From the NCBI RefSeq assembly GCF_001180165.1, contig NZ_CVSQ01000017.1, positions 1 to 64,000 of the forward strand: a stretch of 64,000 nt of DNA, in the 5' to 3' direction. Both the position numbers and the translations under genes were made by a program. Under the pieces are notes generated by a model, which ran no database searches, was not told the origin of the DNA, and worked only from the letters and a program-made list of their open reading frames with translations. Shown one piece after another: positions 6,176 through 54,276 of this stretch. This stretch comes from Candidatus Pelagibacter communis (GTDB lineage Bacteria; Pseudomonadota; Alphaproteobacteria; Pelagibacterales; Pelagibacteraceae). Position 1 is the stretch's first letter. Each line of letters starts with the position of its first letter.

Positions 6176-6541
6176 ATGAAACTAAATTGTCATTGTGGAG
6201 CTGTAGAGGCAGAAATTAAAGCTACAGTTAATGAATTAGCAAAAATTGTAAGATGCAATTGTTCTATTTGTAAAAGAAAAAATGCAACAATGGGGATGGT
6301 TAAAAACGAAGATTTTAAAGTTACTAAAGGACAAGATAAATTAAAACTTTATCAGTATCATACTAAAGTTGCTAACCATTACTTTTGTACTGAATGTGGA
6401 ATTTACACTCATCATAATCCAAGAAGTGCACCAGCTATGACTGGATTTAATTTAGGTTGTGTGGATGAAGTTAAAGTAGAGGATTTAAAAGAAGTAGCTT
6501 ACTTTGATGGTCTTAACCATCCAATGGATCAAGAAAAATAA
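6176..6541 (+). CDS. GFA / CENP-V family zinc protein
   Basis: This protein belongs to the glutathione-dependent formaldehyde-activating (GFA) fold, which holds two zinc ions. The zinc-binding cysteines are visible as CHCGAVEAEI at the N terminus, VRCNCSICKRKNA in the middle and YFCTECGIYTHH toward the C terminus. A clear AAGGAG ribosome binding site precedes the ATG. Proteins of this fold may aid S-hydroxymethylglutathione formation, but many have unknown roles. Formaldehyde handling would suit the C1-oxidising genes elsewhere in the window, though that link is inference. Confidence 0.82.
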   Translation: MKLNCHCGAVEAEIKATVNELAKIVRCNCSICKRKNATMGMVKNEDFKVTKGQDKLKLYQYHTKVANHYFCTECGIYTHHNPRSAPAMTGFNLGCVDEVKVEDLKEVAYFDGLNHPMDQEK

Positions 6542-6548
6542 AAGTTCA

Positions 6549-7478
6549 ATGAAATTATCTGAAGAGTGTTTTAAGAAAGTTAAAAAGGATTGTTTTAAAT
6601 TTATTAAATCACAAGAAACTCCAACTGAAAAGTTTGGCAATAAAGAGGGGATGATAAAGAATTTTTTAATCCCAATATGTTTTTGGATTGCAAAAAAAGC
6701 AGATAACACAAAACCTTACTTTGTTGGTTTAGCTGGAGGACAAGGAACAGGCAAAACAACTATTAGCTCCATAATAAAGATAATATTAGAAAAGTATTTT
6801 AAATTAAAAGTATTCAAGATCTCTATTGATGATTTTTATAAAACTAGAAAAGAAAGAATAGCTTTATCAAAAAAAGTACACCCAATGTTACTTACTAGAG
6901 GAGTTCCTGGAACTCATGATATCAATATGATGTTGGATTTCTTTAAAAAATCAAAAAGTAAAAAATTCAATAAATTAAAATTACCAAATTTTAATAAAGC
7001 AATTGATGACAGATTTCCTAAAACCAAATGGAACAAAATCAATAAAAGACCAGAAGTAATTATTTTTGAAGGATGGTGTGTTGGTGCAAGAGCGGAAGCT
7101 CACAAGACATTAAAAAAATCTATTAATTCTATGGAAAAGGCAAAGGATCGCAAACTGGTTTGGAGAAAATATGTTAATCAACAACTAAAAACTAAATATA
7201 AAAAGCTATATTCTCAGTTAAATTGCATGATTTACTTAAAAGCAAAAAACTTTAGTTTATTACAAAAGTGGAGATTAAAGCAGGAACATAAACTATGGTT
7301 AAAAACAAAGAAAAAGGGTGGTCATAAAATAATGAGTAAAGGAGATGTTATTAATTTTATGCAAACCTACCAAAGAATAACTCAAAACATGTTCAAAAAT
7401 ATGCCTAAATACGCCTCTATAATTTTAAATTTAAACAGTAACCATCAAATTAAAACTGCTGTATATAAATCGAAATGA
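6549..7478 (+). CDS. D-glycerate 3-kinase-like P-loop kinase
   Basis: This is a P-loop kinase of the plant/fungal glycerate kinase (GLYK) and YggC type, which would make 3-phosphoglycerate from glycerate and ATP. The Walker A GGQGTGKT lies at residues 63-70; ISIDDFYKTR and the family hallmark RGVPGTHD follow, then VIIFEGWCVGAR. I chose the ATG at 6549, 7 bases after the previous stop, because the upstream in-frame ATG at 6504 lies inside the GFA gene and adds an unrelated leader. Its stop overlaps the tolC start (ATGA). A glycerate kinase would link glyoxylate/glycine metabolism to glycolysis. Confidence 0.85.
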   Translation: MKLSEECFKKVKKDCFKFIKSQETPTEKFGNKEGMIKNFLIPICFWIAKKADNTKPYFVGLAGGQGTGKTTISSIIKIILEKYFKLKVFKISIDDFYKTRKERIALSKKVHPMLLTRGVPGTHDINMMLDFFKKSKSKKFNKLKLPNFNKAIDDRFPKTKWNKINKRPEVIIFEGWCVGARAEAHKTLKKSINSMEKAKDRKLVWRKYVNQQLKTKYKKLYSQLNCMIYLKAKNFSLLQKWRLKQEHKLWLKTKKKGGHKIMSKGDVINFMQTYQRITQNMFKNMPKYASIILNLNSNHQIKTAVYKSK

Positions 7479-8767
7479 AAAAAATATTTATAATAGTAAT
7501 TACATCAATATTATATTTTAGTAATGCTTTCGCAGTTACGCTTCTTGATGCATTAAATCAAACTTATAAAAATAATATTCAATTAAATGCTGAGAGAGAA
7601 AATATTAAAGCATCAGAAGAGGATGTAAATATTGCAAAGGCTGACTACAAACCTTCATTAACATTAAGTGGAACAAAAAGTATTGAAGATACAAATAAAC
7701 TTACCAATCAAAGTGGAGGTGATGCAAGTATAACTGATGTAGACCCGTTCACTACTTCAATTAAATTAGAACAAACATTGTTAGATTTTGGTAGGGGCTT
7801 AACTCTTGAAAAAAATATTACTGCTTTAGATTTAGCAAAAGCTCAATTAGTTAAAAAAGAACAAGATATTTTGCATAAAGCAATCGATGCTTTCACAAAT
7901 TTAATTTTAGCTAGAGAAACTTTAAATATAAATGAAAAAAATTTAAATCTTTTAATTAGACAAGTTGAAAATGATCAAATTAGAAGAGACAGAGGTCAAA
8001 TTACAAACACTGACTTAGCTCAATCCGAGTCATCACTTGCAGGTGCTCAAGCTCAATTTGCAAAATCAAAAAGTGATTTATTAATTAGTAAACTAAATTA
8101 TGAGAATATAATTGGTAAAATTAGTGATCCAAACCAATTACAGAAAAATTCAACAGCAATAGTCAATATTCCAAAATCTTTAAACGAGGCAATTGGTATT
8201 TCAAAACAAAATAATCCGGATATTCAAATAGCAAAATTTGATTTAGCTAAAGCTGAAAAAGAATTAGCAATTTCAGAGTCAGACTTAAAACCAACTGCTT
8301 CTTTATCTTTAGAAAGATCTTATACTGATGATCTAAGTTCTACATATGATGAAAGAGAAAAAGATGTATTAAAGGCAACAGTTAATTGGCCTTTTTATTC
8401 AGGTGGAAAAAAAAGATCAACTATTTCTAAAAATTCAAACTTAACTACCAGAAAAAGATTACTGTTAGATGATGCTGTTAGAACAAATGAAACAAATGTA
8501 GCAAGTGCTTGGTCTAGTTTAGAGTCTTCAGAAAGTTTTTTAAATTCAGTTAGGGTTCAAGTTAATGCAGCTGAAATAGCTAATGAAGGAATAGCTGCAG
8601 AATACGAAAGAGGCTCGAGAACAACTTTAGATGTTATCCAATCAAATGCTTTATTACTTTCCGCTCAGATTTCTTTAGCAAATTCTGAGAAAAATTATCT
8701 CATGGCTCAATACAATCTGCTTAAGTCAGTAGGTTTGCTTAATAGCCAATATCTAAAACTTAAGTAA
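7475..8767 (+). CDS. tolC: TolC-family outer membrane efflux protein
   Basis: This is the outer-membrane channel for tripartite efflux or type I secretion. A signal peptide (residues 1-20, ending NAFA) precedes two internally similar halves with long helices rich in Ala, Asn, Gln and Leu. The first half shows LLDALNQTYKNN and the second LNEAIGISKQNNPDIQIAKFDLAKAEKEL, typical of the OEP repeat. At 430 residues it is normal for alphaproteobacterial TolC. It is translationally coupled to the upstream kinase by an ATGA overlap. No inner-membrane partner is adjacent; the RND protein at 61.8 kb is of the MMPL type and not an obvious partner. Confidence 0.9.
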   Translation: MKKIFIIVITSILYFSNAFAVTLLDALNQTYKNNIQLNAERENIKASEEDVNIAKADYKPSLTLSGTKSIEDTNKLTNQSGGDASITDVDPFTTSIKLEQTLLDFGRGLTLEKNITALDLAKAQLVKKEQDILHKAIDAFTNLILARETLNINEKNLNLLIRQVENDQIRRDRGQITNTDLAQSESSLAGAQAQFAKSKSDLLISKLNYENIIGKISDPNQLQKNSTAIVNIPKSLNEAIGISKQNNPDIQIAKFDLAKAEKELAISESDLKPTASLSLERSYTDDLSSTYDEREKDVLKATVNWPFYSGGKKRSTISKNSNLTTRKRLLLDDAVRTNETNVASAWSSLESSESFLNSVRVQVNAAEIANEGIAAEYERGSRTTLDVIQSNALLLSAQISLANSEKNYLMAQYNLLKSVGLLNSQYLKLK

Positions 8768-26164: not shown

Positions 26165-26194
26165 TTCACATAAACATTTTAAATGTGTTATAAA
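26165..26194 (+). promoter_or_regulatory. Candidate promoter of the gcv operon
   Basis: TTCACA at 26165-26170 and TATAAA at 26189-26194 are spaced by 18 bases and each differ by one base from the sigma-70 consensus. Transcription would then begin close to 26201, exactly where the first riboswitch aptamer starts. A palindrome, ACATTT-T-AAATGT at 26174-26186, lies in the spacer and could bind a regulator. Confidence 0.55.
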
Positions 26195-26200
26195 TTTATA

Positions 26201-26340
26201 TACGGGAGAGACTACTTTTGTAGCGCCGAAGGAGCAACCACCCCGGAAACTCTCAGGCAAAAGGACCGTACATATTAACTCTGGAAAGAGAATTATTCTC
26301 GCCGAAGGAGCAAATCTCTCAGGCACCAAGACAGAGGGGG
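26201..26340 (+). promoter_or_regulatory. Tandem glycine riboswitch
   Basis: Two glycine aptamers lie in series before gcvT. Aptamer 1 spans 26201-26270, with P1 formed by TACGG and CCGTA; aptamer 2 spans about 26279-26336, with P1 CTCTG and CAGAG. Both contain the conserved core GCCGAAGGAGCAA (26225-26237 and 26301-26313) and a CTCTCAGGCA block. The linker is about 8 bases. No T-run terminator follows; only 19 bases separate the second aptamer from the gcvT ATG, so control by exposure of the ribosome binding site seems more likely than transcription termination. Glycine cleavage operons controlled this way are normally switched on by glycine. Confidence 0.97.
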
Positions 26341-26355: not shown

Positions 26356-27459
26356 ATGGAAATAAAAAAAACATCACTTAATAAACTTCATCAAAGTAAT
26401 AACGCTAAGTTTGTTGAATTTGCTGGCTATGAAATGCCTATTCAGTATAGCAAAGGTATTATTGAAGAGCATAAATTCACAAGATCACATTCTGGAATAT
26501 TTGATGTATCTCATATGGGTCAGCTATTCATATATGGTAATGAAAGTTTAACAGAAGAATTAGAAAAAATTTTTCCATTAGATTTAAAAAATTTAAAACA
26601 AAACTGCTCTAAGTATAGTTTTTTAATGAATGAAGATGCTGGAATTTATGATGATTTAATCATTACTAAAATTGAGGAAGGATATTTAATTATCTTAAAT
26701 GCTGCATGCAAAGATAAAGATTTTGAGATTTTATCTAATTTACTAGATTCGAAATTTAAAATGAATTTAGATAACACTAGATCTTTGATAGCAATTCAAG
26801 GACCCAAGTCTGTTGAAATTTTAAATTCAATTGTAAATGGGGTTGATCAACTAAATTTTATGACAGGAAATTGGTTCGATTCTGATAATCAAAAATTATT
26901 TGTCACAAGATCAGGTTATACAGGGGAAGATGGATTTGAAATTTCAATTTCTAACGATAAAGCTGAAAAATTCGTTGAAAATTTAATAAAAAAGGGAGCA
27001 CAACTTATAGGACTTGGGGCAAGAGATACCTTGAGATTAGAAGCTGGATTATGTTTATATGGTCACGAATTAGATATTAATAAAACACCAGTTGAGGCAA
27101 ACCTTAGATGGGCAATCTCAAAATCTAGACTATCAAATGGAGGTTTTATTGGATCGAAAAAAATTATGAACCAAATGCAAGATGGAGCAAGCCAAATAAG
27201 AGTAGGGATTAAGCCCGAAGGTAGATTGATTGCTAGAGAAAAAACTAAAATATTTGATGATACAGATACACAAATCGGTGAGATAACTAGTGGCACATTT
27301 GGACCAAGTGTAAATGGTCCTATAGCGATGGGTTATGTTAATAAAGAGTTTTCAAAAGTTGATACTAAAATTTTGCTTGAGGTAAGAGGGAAAAAACATC
27401 CAGCAAATGTTTGCGCATTACCATTTTATAAAAAAAATTATGTGAAAGGAGTAAATTAA
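26356..27459 (+). CDS. gcvT: Glycine cleavage system T protein (aminomethyltransferase)
   Basis: GcvT transfers the methylene group from the H-protein-bound intermediate to tetrahydrofolate and releases ammonia. Family blocks include [41 protein letters not shown] and [20 protein letters not shown]. The 367-residue length is standard. It is the first gene after the glycine riboswitch. The gcvH ribosome binding site (AAGGAG) lies within the last codons of this gene. Confidence 0.98.
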
Positions 27460-27839
27460 TGAGTGAAGTAAAATTTTCAAAAGAACATGAGTGGATTACT
27501 TTAGAGGGAGATGTAGCCACAATAGGAATTACAAAACATGCAACAGAAATGCTTGGAGACATCGTTTTTGCAGAACTTCCTGAAAAAGGATCTAATGTTG
27601 AAAAAGATGGTACTGCAGGAGTGGTAGAGTCCACGAAAGCTGCTAGTGATGTTTATACTCCAGTTAGTGGTGAAGTAGTAGATACTAATCAAGCTATTGT
27701 AGATGATCCTTCTAAAATTAATGAAGATCCAGAGGGTTCAGCATGGTTTTTTAAACTTAAAATGAAAGATCAATCCGAAATGGACAGTCTTATGAACAAA
27801 GAAGAATACGATAAATTTGCAAAGGAGAGTGCTAGCTAA
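27459..27839 (+). CDS. gcvH: Glycine cleavage system H protein
   Basis: This is the lipoyl carrier protein that shuttles the aminomethyl group between P, T and L proteins. The lipoylated lysine is Lys60 in [17 protein letters not shown], and the protein starts [13 protein letters not shown] as is usual. At 126 residues it is full length. It overlaps the gcvT stop by one base and the gcvP start by one base, giving fully coupled translation. Confidence 0.99.
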
Positions 27840-30709
27840 TGTTACATAATTCTCAAAAAGATTTTTTAAAAAGGCACATTGGACCTTCAGATGAAGATCA
27901 AAATAAAATGCTTAAGGAACTTAATTACAAATCACTTGATGATTTAATCAAAAGTACAGTTCCAGAAAAAATCCAATTGAAAGATGAATTAAATATTGGT
28001 GAGTCTAATTCAGAATATGAAGCATTAAGAAAATTAAAAGCAATTTCAAAAAAAAATCAAATTTACTCTAACTTTATAGGAATGGGTTATTATGGAACTT
28101 ACACACCATACGTAATTCTAAGAAATATTTTAGAAAATCCAGGTTGGTATACTTCTTATACACCTTATCAACCCGAGGTAGCTCAAGGAAGATTAGAAAT
28201 GCTGCTTAATTTCCAACAAATGATAGTTGATTTTACAGGAATGGATATTGCAAATGCGTCTTTATTAGATGAAGGAACAGCAGCTGCAGAAGCAATGGGA
28301 TTAAGTCATAGATTAAATAAAAAAGATAGTAATTTAGTTTTTGTCTCAGAAAATTGTCACCCACAAACAATCGATGTAATTCAAACAAGAGCAGAACCAA
28401 TGGGATTAAAAGTATTTGTTGGTAATGAAGATGAAGTATTAGACCAATTAAAGGAAGATTTAGTTTGTGGTATATTACAATATCCGGGAACTTTAGGAGA
28501 TATAAAAGATCCTAGTGAAGCAATAAGTAAAATTCATAAAAAAAATGGTAAAGCAATATTAGCTTGTGATTTATTAGCACTTGCTAAATTAAAAACACCA
28601 AGAGAACTAGGAGCAGATATTGCTGTCGGAAGTTCTCAAAGATTTGGAATTCCAATGGGTTACGGTGGACCTCATGCAGCCTTCTTTGCAACTAAAGATG
28701 AATATAAAAGATCTATGCCTGGAAGAATTGTAGGGGTTTCTGTTGATAGACATGGAAACAAAGCTTACAGATTATCATTACAAACTAGGGAACAGCATAT
28801 AAGAAGAGATAAAGCTACAAGTAATATTTGTACTGCCCAAGCTTTGTTAGCAATTGTTTCAGCTGCATATGCCATTTACCACGGACCAGATGGAATAAAA
28901 ACTATTGCTGAGAGAGTTTCTCAATTAGCTAAAAATTTTGCAGATAAATTGAAACAATCTGGATATGAAATTTATTCAGATCATTTCTTTGATACTGTTA
29001 CAATTGTAACAAAGGATAAAACTGATCAAATTTATAAAAATGCCTTGGATCAAAAGGTAAACATTAGAAGAGTAAATTCTGAAATGTTGGCAGTTTCTTT
29101 TGATGAAAAGAAAAATGTTTATAGAGTAAATCAATTGTTGAAAATTTTTAATGCAGCTGAGTCGATTAAAAAAGAAGACCCAACAGTAAGTTTACCTAAT
29201 TTGCCAAAAAACTTATTAAGAACTTCAAAATATTTAGAACATCCTGTTTTTAATTCATACCACTCAGAAACTGAGATGCTCAGATATTTAAAAAAGTTAG
29301 AAGATAAAGATATAGCTTTAAATAGAACTATGATTGCACTTGGTTCATGTACTATGAAATTAAATGCTACTGCAGAAATGATACCTATTTCGTGGAGAGA
29401 ATTAGCTGAACCTCATCCGTTCGTGCCTATAGAGCAGATGGAAGGATATAGAGATTTATTCACTGATCTTAAAAATTGGCTGAGATCAATTACAGGATTT
29501 TCTGGTGTTTCGCTTCAACCAAATGCAGGTGCTCAAGGGGAATATGCAGGATTAATGGTTATTAGAAAATATCATTTAGATAGAGGCGAAGAAAATAGAA
29601 ACATATGTTTAATACCTAGCTCAGCACATGGAACTAATCCTGCTAGCGCACAAATGGTAGGAATGAAAGTTGTCGTTGTTGATTGTGATAAAGAAGGAAA
29701 TGTTGATTTTGAGGATTTAAAGAAAAAAGCAGAAATACATTCTGAAAATCTTGGAGCATTAATGGTCACTTATCCGTCTACTCACGGAGTATTTGAGGAA
29801 AAAATTACAGATATATGTGAGTTAATTCATAAACACGGTGGTCAAGTTTATATGGATGGTGCAAATTTAAATGCGCTTGTTGGTATAGCAAGACCTGGAA
29901 ATTTTGGTCCAGATGTTTGTCATATAAATTTACACAAAACATTCTGTATTCCACATGGTGGTGGAGGACCAGGAATGGGACCAATTGCATGTAAAAGACA
30001 TTTACAAGTTTATTTACCTAATCATCCGGTTGTTAAAGACTGTGGACCTGCTACAGGAATAGGAGCAGTTTCAGCAGCACCTTGGGGAAGCTCAAGTATT
30101 TTATCAATTTCTTGGATGTATATCAAAATGATGGGCTCTGAAGGTTTGAAATTAGCTACTCAAGTTGCAATATTAAATGCAAATTATATAGCTCATAGAC
30201 TTAAAGATCATTACCCAATTCTTTATAAAGGTTCAAACGGAAATGTAGCTCATGAATGTATAATTGATATTCGATCCATTAAAACTGAAACAGGGATCAC
30301 AGAAGAAGATATAGCTAAAAGGTTGATTGATTATGGTTTTCATGCACCAACAATGTCATGGCCAGTAGCAGGTACAATGATGATTGAACCAACTGAAAGT
30401 GAAAGCTTGTCCGAACTAGATAGATTTTGTGATACTTTGATTAGCATTAAATCAGAAATAGATATGATAAAATCAGGAAAATTTGATAAAGTTGATAATC
30501 CAATTAAAAATGCACCTCATACGGATATTGAATTAGCTTCAGATGAATGGAGTCATAAATATTCAAGACAGCAAGCTGCATATCCAGCAAAATTCTTAAA
30601 AGCAAATAAATTTTGGCCTCCGGTTGCGAGAGTTGATAACGTATACGGAGATAAAAATATTTTTTGTACTTGTCCAAGTATGGATGAGTTTAAAGAAGAT
30701 GCAGCATAA
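27839..30709 (+). CDS. gcvP: Glycine dehydrogenase (decarboxylating), single-chain P protein
   Basis: This PLP enzyme decarboxylates glycine and loads H protein. The 956-residue form joins the two halves that many bacteria split into gcvPA and gcvPB. The N-terminal half has FIGMGYYGTYTPYVILRNILENPGWYTSYTPYQPE; the C-terminal half has LGSCTMKLNATAEM and the PLP lysine block NLHKTFCIPHGGGGPGMGP. No gcvL (dihydrolipoamide dehydrogenase) is nearby; the one from 2-oxoacid dehydrogenases would serve. Only 6 bases separate its stop from the next gene on the same strand. Confidence 0.99.
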   Translation: MLHNSQKDFLKRHIGPSDEDQNKMLKELNYKSLDDLIKSTVPEKIQLKDELNIGESNSEYEALRKLKAISKKNQIYSNFIGMGYYGTYTPYVILRNILENPGWYTSYTPYQPEVAQGRLEMLLNFQQMIVDFTGMDIANASLLDEGTAAAEAMGLSHRLNKKDSNLVFVSENCHPQTIDVIQTRAEPMGLKVFVGNEDEVLDQLKEDLVCGILQYPGTLGDIKDPSEAISKIHKKNGKAILACDLLALAKLKTPRELGADIAVGSSQRFGIPMGYGGPHAAFFATKDEYKRSMPGRIVGVSVDRHGNKAYRLSLQTREQHIRRDKATSNICTAQALLAIVSAAYAIYHGPDGIKTIAERVSQLAKNFADKLKQSGYEIYSDHFFDTVTIVTKDKTDQIYKNALDQKVNIRRVNSEMLAVSFDEKKNVYRVNQLLKIFNAAESIKKEDPTVSLPNLPKNLLRTSKYLEHPVFNSYHSETEMLRYLKKLEDKDIALNRTMIALGSCTMKLNATAEMIPISWRELAEPHPFVPIEQMEGYRDLFTDLKNWLRSITGFSGVSLQPNAGAQGEYAGLMVIRKYHLDRGEENRNICLIPSSAHGTNPASAQMVGMKVVVVDCDKEGNVDFEDLKKKAEIHSENLGALMVTYPSTHGVFEEKITDICELIHKHGGQVYMDGANLNALVGIARPGNFGPDVCHINLHKTFCIPHGGGGPGMGPIACKRHLQVYLPNHPVVKDCGPATGIGAVSAAPWGSSSILSISWMYIKMMGSEGLKLATQVAILNANYIAHRLKDHYPILYKGSNGNVAHECIIDIRSIKTETGITEEDIAKRLIDYGFHAPTMSWPVAGTMMIEPTESESLSELDRFCDTLISIKSEIDMIKSGKFDKVDNPIKNAPHTDIELASDEWSHKYSRQQAAYPAKFLKANKFWPPVARVDNVYGDKNIFCTCPSMDEFKEDAA

Positions 30710-46362: not shown

Positions 46363-47268
46363 ATGTTAGAGTTAAGAAATCCAAGAATAGCCATACCCGT
46401 TGTACTTTTTGCCGGTCTGTTGTGGTCGTTTGGTCCATTAGTGGTTCGATACATGGATAATCCGCAATTGGCACCTTGGCAGTATATTTTTGGCAGAGGT
46501 TTAACAATTTTCATCCTTTTAAATCTTTATTTATTTTTTGAGGAAGGAAAAAATTTTTACAAAAACTATTATAAAATAGGTTTATCTGGAGTAATCGGTG
46601 GATCTGGATTGGGGATCGCTATGATTACATTTATTTATTCAATTACAAATACTAGTGCTGCTGTTACCTTGCTTTGTTTAGCAGCAATGCCTTTTTTTAC
46701 AGCATTATTGGCATTTTTATTTTTACAAGAAAAAATTTCTCTTAATGTTTGGATATCGATAATAATTGCAACAGTTGGTATCATTATTATGGCATTTGGA
46801 AATACTGGTGAAAAATCATTAATTGGTTTTGTATTTGGTTTAACTTCCTCAATTGGTTTCTCAGTTTTTTCTGTAACTCTTAGATGGAGAAAAGAAACAC
46901 CAAAATTCACAACGGTAGCTTTTGCAGGTTTCTTTTGTTTTGTATTTGCAACAATTATGATTTTATCCAAAGACTTAGTTTTCTTTTCATCTAGCTATAA
47001 CGGAGCTTTATTTTCTTTGCATGGGACACTAGTTTGTTTTGGTTTAATTTTATATTCAATTGGATCTAAAGCGATACCAGCAGCAGAATTGACACTTTTA
47101 TCTTTAACTGAAGTTGTAGGTGGAATTTTTTGGGTTTGGTTGCCATTATTTGGCATTAATGAAGTACCATCCACAAATACAATAATCGGTGGTTTTTTTC
47201 TTTTTGTATCTATATTTTATTACAGTTTAATAATGAGATGGAACAAAAGATATATAGCATTAAATTAA
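46363..47268 (+). CDS. EamA/DMT-family transporter upstream of creatinase
   Basis: This 301-residue membrane protein has ten helices in two EamA repeats (VLFAGLLWSFGPLVVRYMDNPQLAPWQYIFGRGL, then LTLLSLTEVVGGIFWVWLPLFGINEVPS). It starts 49 bases after moeA and ends one base before the creatinase ATG, making it the first gene of a likely four-gene operon. It is a candidate carrier for creatine, guanidinoacetate or a product such as urea or sarcosine; this is inferred only from position. Confidence 0.87.
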   Translation: MLELRNPRIAIPVVLFAGLLWSFGPLVVRYMDNPQLAPWQYIFGRGLTIFILLNLYLFFEEGKNFYKNYYKIGLSGVIGGSGLGIAMITFIYSITNTSAAVTLLCLAAMPFFTALLAFLFLQEKISLNVWISIIIATVGIIIMAFGNTGEKSLIGFVFGLTSSIGFSVFSVTLRWRKETPKFTTVAFAGFFCFVFATIMILSKDLVFFSSSYNGALFSLHGTLVCFGLILYSIGSKAIPAAELTLLSLTEVVGGIFWVWLPLFGINEVPSTNTIIGGFFLFVSIFYYSLIMRWNKRYIALN

Positions 47269-47269
47269 T

Positions 47270-48487
47270 ATGGAACGACCAGATTTTTTCGAACTTAAAA
47301 ATGGTGAAAAAGTAAAATTACCATTTACAGATAAAGAATATAACGATCGAGTAAGTAAACTTAGATCAGTGATGTACCAAAATGGTCTTGATATGGTTAT
47401 CTTAACCTCAATGCATAACGTTGCATATTACACAGGTTTTATTTATTGCTCTTTTGGTAGACCATACGGATGTGTCATTACACAAAATAAAATCTCAACA
47501 ATTTCAGCTAACATTGATGCAAGTCAACCATGGCGTAGATCTCATTGTGATAACGTTATTTATACTGATTGGAAAAGAGATAATTTTTTAAGAGCTATTG
47601 TCTCAATTATTGGAAGGGATGAACCTCCAAAAAATATTGGAATTGAAAATGATCATCTCACTTTAGACATGCGAGAAAAAATAGGGTCTATTTTTACTTT
47701 CTCTATGTTTAGCGATGTTTCAAAAGATCTAATGAAACTTAGAATGATTAAATCAAACGAAGAAATTGAGATCATTAGAAATGGTGCAAGAATTGCAGAC
47801 ATTGGTGGTGAAGAAATAGTTAAAAATATAAGAGAGGATAATACGGAGATCGAAGTAGCAATAGCAGCAAGAGATAGAATGGAAAGAGAGATTGTTAAAA
47901 GTTATCCGGGTGCAGAGTACATGGACACTTGGGTATGGTTTCAATCGGGTATCAATACAGATGGAGCTCACAATCCAAAGACTAATAGAAAATTAGTTAA
48001 AGGAGATATTTTATCTTTAAATACTTTTCCAATGATTTCAGGCTACTACACTGCACTAGAGCGAACTTTGTTTTTAGATCATGCTGATGACGCATCTCTT
48101 AAAGCTTGGGAGGCAAATGTTAAAGTTCATAAACGTGGATTAGAATTGATTAAACCAGGTGTTAAATGTTCAGATATTTGTCATGAGCTTAATGAACTTT
48201 TTGCTGAGCTTGGTTACCTTCAGTATAGAACTTTTGGCTACGGACATTCATTTGGTATGCTTTCACACTTTTATGGAAGAGAAGCTGGTTTAGAATTAAG
48301 AGAAGACATTGATACTGTTCTTGAGGAAAATATGGTCGTGTCGATGGAGCCAATGATCATGATCCCAGAAGGTAATCCTGGCGCAGGTGGATATAGAGAA
48401 CACGATATTTTGGTGATTGGTAAAGATGGAGCAGAGAATATTACAAAATTTCCTTTCGGCCCTGAGCATAATATTATAAAAAACTAA
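47270..48487 (+). CDS. Creatinase (creatine amidinohydrolase)
   Basis: This 405-residue pita-bread-fold enzyme (M24 family) closely resembles Pseudomonas creatinase over its whole length, including CSFGRPYG, ANIDASQPWRR, YTDWKRDN, WFQSGINTDGAHNP and FGYGHSFG. The catalytic residues of Pseudomonas creatinase (His232, Glu262, Glu358) correspond to His234, Glu264 and Glu360 here. The metal ligands of M24 peptidases are not conserved, which argues against a peptidase. The expected reaction is creatine plus water to sarcosine plus urea; guanidinoacetate is an alternative substrate to test. It lies 5 bases before the amidinotransferase gene. Confidence 0.92.
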   Translation: MERPDFFELKNGEKVKLPFTDKEYNDRVSKLRSVMYQNGLDMVILTSMHNVAYYTGFIYCSFGRPYGCVITQNKISTISANIDASQPWRRSHCDNVIYTDWKRDNFLRAIVSIIGRDEPPKNIGIENDHLTLDMREKIGSIFTFSMFSDVSKDLMKLRMIKSNEEIEIIRNGARIADIGGEEIVKNIREDNTEIEVAIAARDRMEREIVKSYPGAEYMDTWVWFQSGINTDGAHNPKTNRKLVKGDILSLNTFPMISGYYTALERTLFLDHADDASLKAWEANVKVHKRGLELIKPGVKCSDICHELNELFAELGYLQYRTFGYGHSFGMLSHFYGREAGLELREDIDTVLEENMVVSMEPMIMIPEGNPGAGGYREHDILVIGKDGAENITKFPFGPEHNIIKN

Positions 48488-48492
48488 TCTTT

Positions 48493-49608
48493 ATGAGCGA
48501 GAGTAAAACTATTGTTAATAGTTGGAATGAGTGGGATCCGTTAAAACACGTAATTGTTGGAAGAGCGGATGGTACTTGTATACCAGCACCAGAGCCTGCA
48601 TTAGATGCAAAAGTTCCAGAAGACAGTGATATGCGAGGTCAGTTTGGACCAAGAACAAAAGATACTGTCGATAAAGCAAATGAATTATTAGATAACTTTT
48701 CAAACATGCTTCAAAAAAGAGGCATTAAAGTTGATCGACCAACACCAATAGATTTTAATCAAAAAACATCCACACCAGATTGGGAAGCAGAAACTATGTT
48801 TGGCTGTATGCCTCCAAGAGATGTTTTGTTAACAGTGGGTAAGGAGATCTTAGAGGCTACAATGAGTTATCGTTGTCGTTGGTTTGAATATTTATGTTAC
48901 CGACCATTACTTAAAGATTATTACAACCAAGATCCTAATATGAGGCATGAGTCTGCTCCAAAGCCAAGACTAACGGATGCAGATTATAGAAAAGATTATT
49001 TATCAGATAAAATAGGTGTTCAAAAAAGATTAGAGTGGACTGAAAAAAAATATTTTGTAACCACTGAGGAAGAGCCATTATTTGATGCAGCAGATGTATT
49101 GAGATTTGGAAAAGATTTAGTTGTCCAACATGGATTTACAACTAATTTGAAAGGAATTGATTGGCTAAAGAGACATTATAAAGATCACAGAGTCCACGCT
49201 GTAAATTTCCCAGGAGATCCATATCCTATTCACATTGATGCAACCTTTACCCCAATTAAAGAAGGTTTAATTATCAACAATCCTCAAAGAAGACTTCCTA
49301 AGGAACAAAGAAAATTATTTGAAGACAATGGTTGGGAAATCGTAGACAGTGCACAACCAGCACATAACGAACCACCTCCATTATGCTATTCATCAACTTG
49401 GCTATCAATGAATGTTTTAGTTTTGGATCCTAAAACTGTTTGTGTAGAGAAAAGTGAAATATATCAAGCAGAGCAATTAGATAAATTAGGAATGGAAGTT
49501 ATACCAGTAGAACTTAGAGATGCCTACGCTTTTGGCGGAGGTTTACATTGTTGTACTGCAGATGTTTACCGAGAAGGCGAACTTAAAGATTACTTTCCAA
49601 AACAATAA
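48493..49608 (+). CDS. Glycine (arginine) amidinotransferase, AGAT-like
   Basis: This 371-residue enzyme belongs to the amidinotransferase family and resembles vertebrate AGAT throughout: SWNEWDPLKHVIVGRADGTC, MPPRDVLLTVGKEI, FDAADVLRFGKDL, YPIHIDATF, WLSMNVLVLD and GGGLHCCTADVYR. Catalytic Asp198, His247 and Cys353 match human Asp254, His303 and Cys407. The usual reaction transfers an amidino group from arginine to glycine, giving guanidinoacetate and ornithine, and is reversible. Other acceptors (for example GABA or hydroxylamine-type amines) are used by some relatives. It sits between creatinase and threonine aldolase. Confidence 0.9.
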   Translation: MSESKTIVNSWNEWDPLKHVIVGRADGTCIPAPEPALDAKVPEDSDMRGQFGPRTKDTVDKANELLDNFSNMLQKRGIKVDRPTPIDFNQKTSTPDWEAETMFGCMPPRDVLLTVGKEILEATMSYRCRWFEYLCYRPLLKDYYNQDPNMRHESAPKPRLTDADYRKDYLSDKIGVQKRLEWTEKKYFVTTEEEPLFDAADVLRFGKDLVVQHGFTTNLKGIDWLKRHYKDHRVHAVNFPGDPYPIHIDATFTPIKEGLIINNPQRRLPKEQRKLFEDNGWEIVDSAQPAHNEPPPLCYSSTWLSMNVLVLDPKTVCVEKSEIYQAEQLDKLGMEVIPVELRDAYAFGGGLHCCTADVYREGELKDYFPKQ

Positions 49609-49610
49609 TT

Positions 49611-50660
49611 ATGGCAAAAATTAAAATAAAAAGAGAGCGAGTAAAATTCGCTTCTGATAATGTTGCTGGTGCCTGTCCCGAGGTATTAGATGCAATTTTA
49701 AAAGCCAATGAAGGAGATAGCACTCCTTATGGGAATGACCCAATATCTACAGAATTACAAGATAAGTTTTCAGAAATTTTTGAAAAAGAAGTAATTGTTT
49801 TTCCTACTGCCTCAGGTACTGCAGCTAATGCTTTAGCATTATCGACAATGACACCTTCTTATGGAAATATTTATTGTCATAAGATGTCTCATATAAACAC
49901 CGATGAATGTGGTGCACCTGAATTTTATACAGGAGGAGGAAAGTTGGTTCCTTTAAATGGAATAATGGGAAAAATAACAGCAGAGGAGTTGGATCAATCG
50001 ATAGGTGGAAAAGGAATTGTTCATCATACACAACCTTCATCAGTCAGTATCACTCAAGTCTGTGAAACAGGTGAAGTTTATCAATTACATGAAATTAAAA
50101 AAATTGCAGAAGTTACCCATAAGCATAATCTAAATTTACATATGGATGGTGCTAGATTTGCTAATGCATTGGTTTCTTTAGATGTAACTCCTGCTGAAAT
50201 GACATGGAAATCTGGGGTTGATGTATTGTCATTTGGAGCAACTAAAAATGGATGTTTAGCAGCTGAAGCAATTATATTTTTTAAGAAAGAATTAGTAGGG
50301 GACATTGCTTTTTTAATGAAACGAGCAGGGCACTTATTATCTAAAATGCGTTTTGTCTCTGCACAACTCGATGCATATATATCAAATGATGTTTGGTTGA
50401 GAAATGCAAAGCACGCTAATGCAATGGGAAAAAAATTAAGTGATGGATTAAGTAAACATAATGATATTGAAATTGCTTATCCAACAGAAGCAAATGAAGT
50501 GTTTGCAAAATTTCCAAGAGAAAAAATAGAACATCTAAATTCTCAAGGTTACAAAATGAACGAAGAAGAATTGGATGGAAAAGCGGTAAGATTAGTTGCT
50601 GCTTGGAATACTAAAGATAGCGATGTTGATGAATTGTTAAATACAATTAAAGCTAACTAG
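49611..50660 (+). CDS. ltaE: Low-specificity L-threonine aldolase family PLP enzyme
   Basis: This PLP enzyme would cleave threonine to glycine and acetaldehyde (or act on related beta-hydroxy amino acids). SDNVAGACPEVLDAI begins the fold; HMDGARFANAL contains the PLP-contacting Asp179; Lys212 in SFGATKNGC is the Schiff-base lysine; RFVSAQLDAYI follows. At 349 residues it is typical of the aldolase/beta-eliminating lyase family. Its start is 2 bases after the amidinotransferase stop, so glycine production is transcriptionally linked with glycine-using AGAT. Its stop overlaps a convergent small gene by 8 bases. Confidence 0.88.
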   Translation: MAKIKIKRERVKFASDNVAGACPEVLDAILKANEGDSTPYGNDPISTELQDKFSEIFEKEVIVFPTASGTAANALALSTMTPSYGNIYCHKMSHINTDECGAPEFYTGGGKLVPLNGIMGKITAEELDQSIGGKGIVHHTQPSSVSITQVCETGEVYQLHEIKKIAEVTHKHNLNLHMDGARFANALVSLDVTPAEMTWKSGVDVLSFGATKNGCLAAEAIIFFKKELVGDIAFLMKRAGHLLSKMRFVSAQLDAYISNDVWLRNAKHANAMGKKLSDGLSKHNDIEIAYPTEANEVFAKFPREKIEHLNSQGYKMNEEELDGKAVRLVAAWNTKDSDVDELLNTIKAN

Positions 50661-50891: not shown

Positions 50892-51359
50892 TTATCTAAA
50901 AAATAAACTTTTTCTAATATCTATAATTTCTCTGATCTGTTTGTCTTTACTGGCATTCCAAGAAACAAATAAAGTACATAATTGATATAAGGCAAATATC
51001 TCATTTTTTTGATTTTGAGACAAATCACTATCTGCCTCTACATAGTTTTCAAAATAAGAAATATTATTTCTTGCACAGTTTAGATAATATTTACATGCAT
51101 CAGTTACTGTAGCAGTTGACCACCAGTTTGAATCTTTGAAAAGATTAGATATTTCTTGATAGAAAGAACTTGTTTCAGAAATATTTAAATCCTTTTGAAC
51201 ATTTTCTGAAAATTGATCTAATTCAAATTGGATTAAAGCTAATATCTTTTTTTCGCTACTTCTCTTTACAAGTAGTTCAATGACATTTTTATATGACATT
51301 GATTGGATTTTATTCCAATTATCAAAAAAATCGTTTGGTGCTTTATTTAAATCTCCCAT
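50892..51359 (-). CDS. Hypothetical alpha-helical protein
   Basis: This 155-residue protein appears almost entirely helical and acidic, with aromatic-rich segments (FFDNWNKIQSM, NWWSTATVTDACKYYLNCARNNISYFENYVEAD). There is no signal peptide, membrane segment or motif I recognise. It starts 2 bases after the stop of the downstream-located Gfo/Idh/MocA gene on the same strand, so it is likely the last but one gene of the PhyH-dehydrogenase operon. Confidence 0.65.
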   Translation of the reverse strand: MGDLNKAPNDFFDNWNKIQSMSYKNVIELLVKRSSEKKILALIQFELDQFSENVQKDLNISETSSFYQEISNLFKDSNWWSTATVTDACKYYLNCARNNISYFENYVEADSDLSQNQKNEIFALYQLCTLFVSWNASKDKQIREIIDIRKSLFFR

Positions 51360-51361
51360 GT

Positions 51362-52441
51362 TTAATTATTTAAAGGTAACCAAGAACTATATAAAGGATT
51401 ATCTTTATTGATTGGAAGTTTAATGTTCTTATTTTGTCTAGAAGAATCATACACAGCAGTTACAAATTCTAGAGATTTTCTAGCATCTGATAAAGTTACT
51501 TCATCACTATGAGATCCATCTAATTTATTTGCAATTTCATCAAACATACCTGCATACCAGGATTTTGGTTCTTTTACTTTTGATAGAACTTCATCTATTT
51601 GAGCTTGAGTTATAGGAGCTCTTGGTAAAAAGTCCCATTTATCATCAGCTGGACTATATGGTTTATCTGGTGATGCACCAGACTCAGCTGTTAACCCTTT
51701 AAAACAAAATCGAAGTCTACTCGTATCATTTGCTGCACCCAATGTAATTGAACTTGTAACTAATGTGCCGTTTTCCATTTCAATAGATAGGGCAGCACAA
51801 TCCTCAACCTCAATATTATTTACTCTAGTTGTTAATTTTGCAAAAACATTTGAAACTGGTCCCAAGATCATACTCACTAAATCATGAATATGGATTGAAT
51901 GACTTAATATTGCACCACCTTGTTCACCTTCCCAAGTTCCTCTCCAAGGTTTTGAATAATAATCTTTACCTCTGTTCCAATGAGTTTCTAAAGAAGCAAC
52001 CAAAGGATTTCCTGCTAAACCAGATTTGATTAATGCTTTTAATTTTGAAAACCCTAGACCATATCGATATTGAAATACTGGGAAAATAATCTTACCTGTT
52101 TCTTTACTGATCTTTTCTAACTCATCTACTTCTTTAAGACTTGAAACTAATGGTTTTTCACAAATCACATGCTTTCCAGCTTCCATAGCTTTTTTACAAG
52201 CAGAAAAATGTAAATGTGGTGGGAGACAAATATCAATAATATCAATTTCTTTAACTTTTAATACATCATCAAAATTTAGAGAAACTTTTGTCTCAGTAAT
52301 TGATTGTAATATTTTATCAATAGCCTCCCTAGTTAAACCACATAATGTGTGAACATTAAATCTCTCTGATACTTTTTGAAAATCTTCAAAATGTTTTGCT
52401 CCTATGTTGGTTCCAATTATTGCTACTTGATATTTTTTCAT
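51362..52441 (-). CDS. Gfo/Idh/MocA family oxidoreductase 1
   Basis: This 359-residue NAD(P)-dependent dehydrogenase has a Rossmann start (VAIIGTNIGAKHFEDFQKV) and the family's catalytic EKP in HVICEKPLVSSLKEVDEL. The C-terminal alpha-beta domain includes ETHWNRGKDYYSKPWRGTWEGEQGGAILSHSIHIHDLVSMILG, with the conserved G-G-x-L-x-x-x-x-x-H-x-x-D pattern. Substrates of the family are sugars, polyols and related compounds. It overlaps the second dehydrogenase by 4 bases (ATGA). Confidence 0.9.
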   Translation of the reverse strand: MKKYQVAIIGTNIGAKHFEDFQKVSERFNVHTLCGLTREAIDKILQSITETKVSLNFDDVLKVKEIDIIDICLPPHLHFSACKKAMEAGKHVICEKPLVSSLKEVDELEKISKETGKIIFPVFQYRYGLGFSKLKALIKSGLAGNPLVASLETHWNRGKDYYSKPWRGTWEGEQGGAILSHSIHIHDLVSMILGPVSNVFAKLTTRVNNIEVEDCAALSIEMENGTLVTSSITLGAANDTSRLRFCFKGLTAESGASPDKPYSPADDKWDFLPRAPITQAQIDEVLSKVKEPKSWYAGMFDEIANKLDGSHSDEVTLSDARKSLEFVTAVYDSSRQNKNIKLPINKDNPLYSSWLPLNN

Positions 52442-53448
52442 TTTTTTTCAGCTTGCTCTTGAGCTTTAATAGCAAGTTCCATCGAAAGATAAGTAAGATC
52501 TTGTGGACATACAGTTTCTGTTCTGTTTAAAACATCATTAATTAAATTTCTAAAGTAGGGTAGCTTAACATTAGAACAATCAATATGTTTCACTTCATCA
52601 TTATTTGCTAAAAATAAATGATTACCTTTTTCTGATTTTGCTAAGTCTGTATATTTTCTTATTTCAATAAAACCTTTGTCTCCAAGGATTAACAATCTTC
52701 CATCTCCCCAGGTTGGAAGGGCATCTGGAGTAAACCAATCTAGACGAATATAGCCATGCCCACCATTACCAGTAAGGTTCACTTCACCAAAATCTTGAAA
52801 ACCAGGCATATCTTTCTTTGTCGTATTTTCTACTAATGCATGGTTTATTTTTGCCTGATTTGAGTTTGTGAAAACTAAAAATTGATGAATTTGATGAGAA
52901 CCAATATCGGTAATAATTCCTCCATAACTTTGACGATTATAAAACCAATCAGGTCTTTCATAGTTACCTTGTCTATGGGGACCTGTACCAATCGTTTGTT
53001 TTACTTTTCCTATTTTTCCCTCATTGACTAATTCTTCAGCTTTAGCAACTGCAGCAACGTGAAATCTTTCAGAAAAATTTACAGACCAGATCTTTCCAGT
53101 TTCTTTAACAGTATTTTTCAAATTATTTAATTGATCCAAGGTAGTACAGCCTGGTTTATCTACCATAACATCTTTCCCAGCTTTTAATGCATCTATTGAA
53201 TGACCAGCTCTATCTGCAGGGATCGAAGATATTAAAATCATATCAATAGATGAGTCTTTTAATATTTCCTCTTTATTTTCTTTTCTTTTAATATTTGGAT
53301 ATTTTTTATTAAATTCTTGAAGAGTTAAAGGATCTCCATCTGTCCAAAAATAATTACAGCTACAACCTTCTTTGATCATTTCATCTAGCATATCGAAAAT
53401 ATGACCATGATCTATTCCAATTACTCCAAGGTTAAGTGCTTTTTTCAT
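52438..53448 (-). CDS. Gfo/Idh/MocA family oxidoreductase 2
   Basis: This 336-residue dehydrogenase is related to the preceding one but clearly diverged. LGVIGIDHGHIFDMLDEM replaces the standard glycine-rich loop, MVDKPGC stands where EKP is usual, and PDWFYNRQSYGGIITDIGSHQIHQFLVF is the substrate-domain signature. The two dehydrogenases, encoded back to back, might catalyse sequential oxidations of one sugar-like substrate. It follows the PhyH gene with 3 bases between. Confidence 0.9.
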   Translation of the reverse strand: MKKALNLGVIGIDHGHIFDMLDEMIKEGCSCNYFWTDGDPLTLQEFNKKYPNIKRKENKEEILKDSSIDMILISSIPADRAGHSIDALKAGKDVMVDKPGCTTLDQLNNLKNTVKETGKIWSVNFSERFHVAAVAKAEELVNEGKIGKVKQTIGTGPHRQGNYERPDWFYNRQSYGGIITDIGSHQIHQFLVFTNSNQAKINHALVENTTKKDMPGFQDFGEVNLTGNGGHGYIRLDWFTPDALPTWGDGRLLILGDKGFIEIRKYTDLAKSEKGNHLFLANNDEVKHIDCSNVKLPYFRNLINDVLNRTETVCPQDLTYLSMELAIKAQEQAEKK

Positions 53449-53451
53449 AAA

Positions 53452-54276
53452 CTAATAAGATCCTTTTTGTTTTGCACCTTTATAAAAAATTTCTTGCAAG
53501 TAATCATTTTCTTTTTTTCGAAGTAAAATACTTTCCTCACTCATTAAAGCATTAGTTCTATTTATTACTTCATGATGATGATATTTATCCTCTCCTCTTG
53601 CAATTTGGACGCTATTTTTACCCAAGGTTTGTTTTACGTTTGTCCCTATATAACTTTGGATAACAAATCCTATTCTTCTATCATTACTCTTATTTATTCC
53701 TGAGCCGTGCACTACTCTTGGGTGATGCAAAGACATTTGACCAGCTTTTAGTTCTATAGATTTAACTTCTTCTTCAGGTACATTTTCTACTGTTTGTCCC
53801 CTGGTAAGTAAATTTCCTTCATTAAATTTCTCATTGTGATCTTTAATATTCAAATGTGATTTAGGCCACATTTTCATACATCCATTATTTTCATTCGAAT
53901 CTGTTAATGCCACCCATGCTGTAACCCAATTGTGTGGTTCTAATCCTATGTACTTTGCATCTTGGTGATAGCTTACAAAACCTTGCTCGTTAGGGTTTTT
54001 AATAAATAAAGTAGTACTGCAAACTAAGATGTTTTTTCCAATAATACTTTCTACTGCATCTAAAATTTTTGAATTATGAACAATCGAATCAAGTTTTGGT
54101 GAAATTAAATGAACATTATATCTTCCCGATTTATCTATTTCATTTGGTAATTTTTTTTCAATTAATTCGATTTCTTCTCTTGCCTCTAAGGCTTCACGAC
54201 TAGACAAAACTTCAATTGGGGATATGTAACCTTGATCTTCATACTGTTTAAGTTGATTTGATGATAGATAAGTCAT
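53452..54276 (-). CDS. Phytanoyl-CoA dioxygenase (PhyH) family protein
   Basis: This is an Fe(II)/2-oxoglutarate-dependent oxygenase of 274 residues. The iron ligands are probably His104 and Asp106 in SYHQDAKYIG and His190 in HHPRVVHGSG, with Arg201 for 2-oxoglutarate binding in NDRRIGF. Family members hydroxylate very different small molecules. It is the first gene of the minus-strand operon that continues into two dehydrogenases, suggesting hydroxylation followed by oxidation. It is divergent from the MOSC gene over 47 bases. Confidence 0.88.
   Translation of the reverse strand: MTYLSSNQLKQYEDQGYISPIEVLSSREALEAREEIELIEKKLPNEIDKSGRYNVHLISPKLDSIVHNSKILDAVESIIGKNILVCSTTLFIKNPNEQGFVSYHQDAKYIGLEPHNWVTAWVALTDSNENNGCMKMWPKSHLNIKDHNEKFNEGNLLTRGQTVENVPEEEVKSIELKAGQMSLHHPRVVHGSGINKSNDRRIGFVIQSYIGTNVKQTLGKNSVQIARGEDKYHHHEVINRTNALMSEESILLRKKENDYLQEIFYKGAKQKGSY

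Follow-up and report, generated by a model that had tools for sequence, protein, structure and literature searches.

Why would a marine bacterium keep a glycine amidinotransferase (AGAT) directly beside a creatinase? The question is raised by a 64,000-nucleotide stretch of Candidatus Pelagibacter communis (contig NZ_CVSQ01000017.1, positions 1 to 64,000; hereafter the window), which is part of contig C17 of genome G000 (805 kb, 66% complete). Because the window matches the SAR11_0636 small RNA family in an Rfam scan and the best 80 named AGAT loci, on which our named-locus counts rest, are all Pelagibacteraceae or Pelagibacter records, we assign it to SAR11, which is more common in surface seawater than any other bacterial group. 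Its plus strand carries, as originally predicted, a tandem run of four genes separated by 1, 5 and 2 bases: an EamA/DMT-family membrane transporter (46363..47268; 301 amino acids; PF00892, 65.9 bits against a cut-off of 28.2), a creatinase (creatine amidinohydrolase, EC 3.5.3.3, M24 fold; 47270..48487; 405 amino acids), an AGAT-family amidinotransferase (48493..49608; 371 amino acids) and a low-specificity threonine-type aldolase (49611..50660; 349 amino acids; PF01212, 199 bits). Sequence matching suffices to fix their folds. The open reading frames of the run include no methyltransferase between creatinase and AGAT. We tentatively favor the view, at somewhat less than even confidence, that these genes form a module for salvaging guanidino compounds, which supplies glycine to a cell that requires it.

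In such a module, imported creatine would be hydrolyzed by the predicted creatinase to sarcosine and urea, and sarcosine would yield glycine by demethylation. AGAT would most likely work in the salvage direction, converting guanidinoacetate and ornithine to glycine and arginine, so that the guanidino nitrogen would be kept in arginine and not given up as urea. The amidinotransferase reaction is reversible (PMC3684758; statements drawn from cited papers rest here on excerpts of those papers). Where present, the aldolase would convert threonine to glycine; its homology to solved low-specificity L-threonine aldolases runs full length (1v72, E = 2.5e-107), and its substrate is assigned on that likeness. 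EamA probably moves one substrate or product. The cultured SAR11 member Ca. Pelagibacter ubique is auxotrophic for glycine, and in SAR11 glycine betaine can take the place of glycine (PMC12478193). The routes from creatine, guanidinoacetate and threonine would all end in glycine, which SAR11 needs, and this convergence argues for a salvage module. In urease-free cells, transamidination would also save two nitrogens that hydrolysis would lose. The observations beneath this reading are gene identities, order and conservation, the recurrent pairing with creatinase, an unchanged creatinase core pocket and genes with the FAO_M domain; from these we infer the substrates and direction of AGAT, the transport and the joint action of the genes, the direction of AGAT being the weakest step.

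The creatinase resembles the solved enzymes of Pseudomonas putida (1chm, E = 1.2e-161) and Alcaligenes (7yto, E = 5.9e-160), at about 60% identity and with the same catalytic and core pocket residues. Identity to 1chm is 59.5% over 398 aligned residues, and the score is 541 bits, compared with 91 bits for the best non-creatinase match. Unlike these two enzymes, it has Lys237 and Phe334 near the site and AGAT as a predicted operon partner. We compared 13 pocket and catalytic positions in an alignment of 33 creatinases that includes the two solved proteins, with 17 of the best class-wide matches as outgroup rows. Ten are invariant, whether or not the gene adjoins AGAT, among them Phe62, Arg64, His232, Glu262, His324, Arg335, Glu358 and His376 (P. 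putida numbering), which the window protein keeps as Phe62, Arg64, His234, Glu264, His326, Arg337, Glu360 and His378. We take His234, Glu264 and Glu360, claimed at the outset to be intact and found so in this alignment, to be catalytic, and the Phe, the two Arg and a His to be substrate-binding. Trp88 varies in a single protein. Val235Lys and Tyr332Phe (Lys237 and Phe334 of the window) are common to 7 of the 33, all from SAR11 and including the creatinase of L035, which has no adjacent AGAT. Of the seven columns that passed our filter, none sets all AGAT-adjacent creatinases apart; the changes track the SAR11 lineage. Leaving aside a putative effect of the two SAR11 changes, there is no sign in these proteins of retuning toward guanidinoacetate.

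Creatinase and AGAT look functionally linked, as the original prediction supposed, because their adjacency recurs in three clades and they co-occur across the class. Among 386 evenly drawn alphaproteobacterial genomes (AGAT at E ≤ 1e-40, creatinase at E ≤ 1e-80), AGAT is present in 11 and creatinase in 45; creatinase accompanies AGAT in 8 of the 11 and is found in 37 of the 375 others (Fisher p = 2e-6). The own genus contributes three genomes, all with both genes, and when it is excluded creatinase is present in 5 of 8 AGAT genomes (p = 6e-4); these p-values are inflated by kinship, as two pairs among the five share a genus, and another entry in the count, G121, has only a distant AGAT type (38% identical). 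The genes lie side by side in four of the eight co-occurring genomes, three of the four from the own genus. Stronger evidence is supplied by another alphaproteobacterial family, f104, which may be SAR116: a survey of 61 of its genomes (AGAT at E ≤ 1e-80, with 1.5 kb around AGAT inspected for creatinase) gave AGAT in 14, and 9 of these have creatinase beside it. The two genes are divergent in genus g225 (seven genomes), convergent in g468 (two genomes) and tandem in SAR11. On the tree of 33 creatinases, the AGAT-adjacent proteins form three separate supported groups (SAR11, 100/100, including one non-adjacent member from family f2; g225, 99/97; g468, 100/100), forcing at least three changes. 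Some of these may be losses, but the existence of three arrangements speaks for independent origins. The recruitment of different creatinases to AGAT in turn argues for a shared function. The AGAT tree suggests horizontal exchange: f104 and f23 proteins group with the own SAR11 family (100/99), the second SAR11 family falls outside, and the basal branches are long. Two f104 loci of g468 (L241 and L242) hold AGAT, creatinase, an agmatinase-family ureohydrolase and a PotABCD-like ATP-binding cassette (ABC) importer together, with a PhyH oxygenase and a diaminopropionate ammonia-lyase in the same cluster, which is thus rich in guanidino-type genes (L242 by scan, L241 by clustering). A DegT-family aminotransferase is near AGAT in 6 of 8 g225 loci.

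Within SAR11, AGAT and creatinase are unequally distributed. Our sample of 61 genomes, many of them incomplete, comprises the own genome and 60 relatives (37 of the own genus, 24 of family f2). AGAT is matched in 50 of these (29/37 and 21/24, respectively) and in 17 of the 18 with a completeness of 90% or more and a contamination of no more than 5%. A close creatinase, defined by at least 80% identity (matches of 20-30% were taken as other M24 enzymes), occurs in 13 of 61; in 37 of the 50 AGAT-bearing genomes, many of them incomplete, none was detected. That AGAT is common and creatinase present in few argues for a role of AGAT independent of creatinase. We called genes on 40 fetched stretches, covering 26 own-genus AGAT loci (25 genomes) and 12 f2 loci. 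In 24 of the 26 own-genus loci the gene directly before AGAT, or before creatinase-AGAT, is EamA; creatinase lies between EamA and AGAT in 10 and the aldolase is present in 7. Among the best 80 named loci, creatinase is upstream of AGAT in 50 and EamA abuts AGAT without creatinase in 27. Two of the 50 (L159 and L167) have one extra gene intervening, which by eye encodes a 571-residue TPR-like protein. Sorted by content, 24 loci have both creatinase and aldolase, 21 creatinase only, 17 aldolase only and 9 neither, and the remaining 9 are edge or other cases, two of which do carry creatinase behind the TPR-like gene. With all four combinations found, we rejected the idea that AGAT requires the aldolase as a companion. 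In the own genus EamA and AGAT form the stable pair, to which creatinase and aldolase are optional additions. Gains or losses of creatinase take place at a single fixed position: its presence needs six changes on a tree of 99 AGAT genes (five to eight in bootstrap trees), and well-supported branches force at least three. In all 12 f2 loci, neither EamA nor a close creatinase nor the aldolase is beside AGAT, and in the one creatinase-bearing f2 genome (G039) creatinase is located away from AGAT. Three SAR11 loci stand apart: in L048 (6668-8949; G045, f2) an ectoine-hydrolase-like M24 gene adjoins AGAT; L040 (509-8879; G025:C22) holds a second AGAT, 75% identical, in a different operon, followed by another EamA-family gene, a 2-oxoglutarate-Fe(II) (2OG-Fe(II)) oxygenase, a luciferase-like monooxygenase, a thiamine pyrophosphate enzyme and an AA_synth protein; and L051 (about 6500-7700; G031:C11) encodes a divergent amidinotransferase-like protein (about 31%) on a very long branch.

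Which acceptor does this AGAT use? The protein is homologous over its full length to human AGAT (GATM, EC 2.1.4.1), which opens creatine synthesis in animals, with 42.8% identity over 353 aligned residues (1jdx, E = 5.4e-87). A column comparison confirms the predicted catalytic Asp198, His247 and Cys353, and conservation extends to the positions equivalent to human Arg322 and Ser355. Its earlier description as vertebrate-like is loose: the marine proteins form a clade of their own (100/100, 30 rows), which stands only weakly beside human AGAT (82/99, long branches). Unlike the human enzyme it has creatinase as its partner, which runs counter to creatine synthesis, and a search of 34 genomes with human guanidinoacetate methyltransferase (GAMT) as the query found none, although a distant GAMT could be missed in a search made without a positive-control genome. 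The substrate lid, or 300-flap (residues 242-246; 49216..49230, plus strand), reads DPYPI, as it does in 6 of 12 f2 loci, the other six having DPFPT. The characterized lids are DPNPM in human AGAT, DIFPS in CyrA and DMHPM in AmtA (PMC4887976, PMC3684758), and the window lid equals neither glycine-user lid (DPNPM, DIFPS). It comes closest in type to that of CyrA: position 300 (human numbering) is aromatic and position 302 is small or medium in size; the related L109 reads DPFPS. CyrA and AoaA, likewise bacterial, use glycine (PMC3684758, PMC4887976). To judge from the lid, the CyrA-like aromatic would favor a small acceptor, without proving it. CyrA differs in serving toxin biosynthesis, whereas several neighbors here look catabolic. 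The CyrA lid also occurs in a protein of 43% identity that is encoded on a plasmid beside polyketide synthases. Homologues on plasmid records of Photobacterium and Streptomyces (57% and 54%) have no creatinase, no EamA of the window type and no aldolase nearby, and phage homologues are distant (at most 29%).

The wider pathway can be followed in part. Sarcosine demethylation has candidates in the FAO_M domain (sarcosine and dimethylglycine dehydrogenases), present in 32 of 34 genomes and in two copies in G000. As for arginase, whose presence was to be checked, G000 has two ureohydrolases, both of which pass the agmatinase cut-off and fall well short of the arginase one, in a genome that is two-thirds complete. 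The first has 3-guanidinopropionase and guanidinobutyrase as its best matches and adjoins an aldehyde dehydrogenase, with polyamine-type permeases a few genes on (both by eye). The second, a TTG-start agmatinase, comes after a 1,9-bis(guanidino)-5-aza-nonane synthase (above cut-off) and a LysA-like decarboxylase in an apparent polyamine operon (contig C60; L121 4780-7993). The family is present in 49 of 56 genomes tested; its members were classified only in G000 and, for one of them, in G022 (G022:C1:40451-41308; L122), a third type below all curated cut-offs that by eye adjoins two EamA-like genes and a 2OG-Fe-type oxygenase. Full-strength matches to urease alpha occur in 6 of 56 genomes (G006, G022, G041, G042, G347 and G421), and no urease was found in G012, G255 and G341, SAR11 genomes with creatinase that are complete or nearly so.

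Some AGAT neighbors touch glycine, betaine or sarcosine (L045, L094). L045 (3436-11513; G004:C4) has AGAT in a cluster with a BHMT-like homocysteine methyltransferase, a DAO plus GCV_T protein, a Rieske protein (best model GbcA), a METTL27-like methyltransferase and a DddP-like M24 protein, the named models all scoring below their cut-offs. We rejected this methyltransferase as GAMT, its best solved match being METTL27; GAMT genes have been reported in marine viruses (PMC11360552). L094 has MTTB and GCV_T proteins near AGAT, and in family f23, which may be Roseobacter-like, L104 has a ureohydrolase and an aldehyde dehydrogenase. The f23 neighbors are mostly unrelated or unidentified, in GC-rich loci where ad hoc calls of open reading frames are unreliable. 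In L097 (6283-13839; G212, f135) AGAT is followed by Amdase, PALP, ornithine-cyclodeaminase-like, PALP and M20 genes, with an M24 match as well; these genes presumably resemble eutABCE of ectoine use.

Several observations weigh against salvage feeding the glycine pool. The lid is unlike the three characterized ones, so that glycine and guanidinoacetate are not assured as substrates. The glycine-linked neighbors fit glycine as an AGAT substrate equally well as a product, and the ectoine-like, DegT aminotransferase and mre neighbors do not fit a glycine theme. In f2, AGAT sits between a RodA-type gene (mreB, mreC and PBP2 beyond) and a flavin adenine dinucleotide (FAD) monooxygenase. Nor is AGAT present everywhere: in sister genus g5, the complete genomes G152 and G415 gave no match at E 1e-40. 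At the AGAT loci examined outside the own genus and f104, seven from f23 and two from f76 among them, no creatinase lies nearby. Creatinase-bearing G421 and G347 (both f104) and G022 do have urease, and the nitrogen-saving argument therefore holds for part of the set only. We found no report of guanidinoacetate as a seawater nutrient in the open-license literature searched. Finally, we rejected riboswitch control of AGAT: no glycine or guanidine riboswitch was found at the operon by Rfam scans (whole window; operon at E up to 5) or at 17 other AGAT loci, and the creatinase-only L035, likewise scanned, had none.

A broader form of the salvage hypothesis, which we regard as possible and rather doubtful, would make AGAT a widespread non-toxin enzyme of SAR11 primary metabolism running in reverse. 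It would salvage guanidinoacetate-type compounds from seawater without urea, pass the whole amidino group to arginine and free glycine, and creatinase would have been recruited several times to add creatine.

Alternatively, AGAT could run forward, making guanidinoacetate or a related guanidino acid for export by EamA or for use as a solute or precursor, with creatinase a separate nutrient gene inserted nearby. Many EamA-superfamily members export metabolites, AGAT in the own genus keeps EamA as its constant companion, and an EamA-family gene is also beside AGAT in L040 and L103 (f23). As of 2007, moreover, prokaryotic amidinotransferases had been shown only in antibiotic and toxin biosynthesis (PMC2242806). 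Forward synthesis would, however, have a glycine auxotroph spend glycine; the recurrent creatinase pairing and the ureohydrolase and importer-type ABC system of g468 look catabolic; and the GAMT search came back empty. We consider this explanation unlikely. We give equally little credence to the proposal that AGAT acts on another amine (taurine, beta-alanine, gamma-aminobutyric acid (GABA), lysine, sarcosine or another), so that the guanidino product or donor would not be guanidinoacetate. The DPYPI and DPFPT lids differ from the human, CyrA and AmtA lids, AGAT neighbors differ widely among lineages, and human GATM, when also offered GABA, beta-alanine and taurine, yielded guanidinobutyrate, guanidinopropionate and taurocyamine (PMC9772407). 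Against this, the lid type comes closest to that of glycine-using CyrA, with F-P-S exactly in L109, and some neighbors concern glycine or sarcosine.

Least probable is the arginase bypass of the original prediction, in which AGAT would make guanidinoacetate and ornithine from arginine and glycine and creatinase would hydrolyze guanidinoacetate to glycine and urea (net, arginine to ornithine plus urea): the recycling of glycine, the recurrent adjacency, the G000 ureohydrolases that fall far short of arginase and the agmatinase-family ureohydrolases beside AGAT in L104 and L242 speak for it, but we do not favor it because the compared catalytic and core pocket residues of the creatinase match those of solved creatinases, most AGAT genomes have no close creatinase detected, EamA often abuts AGAT without one, G012, G255 and G341 yielded no urease, and the human guanidino-acid ureohydrolase rejects guanidinoacetate (PMC9772407). 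The other option in that prediction, AGAT running backwards, fits better than the bypass, its direction being what we infer.

Promoter- and terminator-like sites at the operon are not commoner than in shuffled sequence. About 20 kb away, a glycine riboswitch (RF00504, 70.5 bits; 26193-26278) directly precedes apparent gcvT, gcvH and gcvP genes (26356-30709; identified by eye). Past the aldolase, a minus-strand block (50892-54276) encodes an unknown protein, two MocA-type oxidoreductases and a PhyH oxygenase, and its gene content differs between relatives.

A described parallel to guanidino-compound salvage by AGAT and creatinase is human GATM with AGMAT/GDAH, which likewise combines an amidinotransferase able to make guanidino acids with a hydrolase that cleaves them (PMC9772407). 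GDAH, however, is a ureohydrolase that rejects creatine as well as guanidinoacetate, and the hydrolase here is an M24 creatinase. Creatinase-annotated genes and creatine-to-glycine routes have been inferred from marine genomes in a Red Sea survey of SAR11 (PMC3686209) and for AEGEAN169 (PMC11366302), in which 'creatinase' may cover other M24 proteins; neither paper contains the word 'amidinotransferase'. In the open-license literature searched, no paper mentions both 'amidinotransferase' and 'SAR11', which is not proof of novelty.

The presence of AGAT beside creatinase in SAR11 points to an undescribed recovery of glycine and nitrogen from creatine-like compounds. This raises the question, for cultured strains, of whether creatine or guanidinoacetate can replace glycine and whether their nitrogen ends in arginine. 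If our reading is true, bacterial AGAT would gain a role in primary metabolism, in contrast to the toxin and antibiotic view of the 2007 survey (PMC2242806). Creatine and guanidinoacetate would join the food sources of SAR11, and an enzyme known in bacteria from the making of toxins and antibiotics would recycle guanidino nitrogen in the surface ocean.

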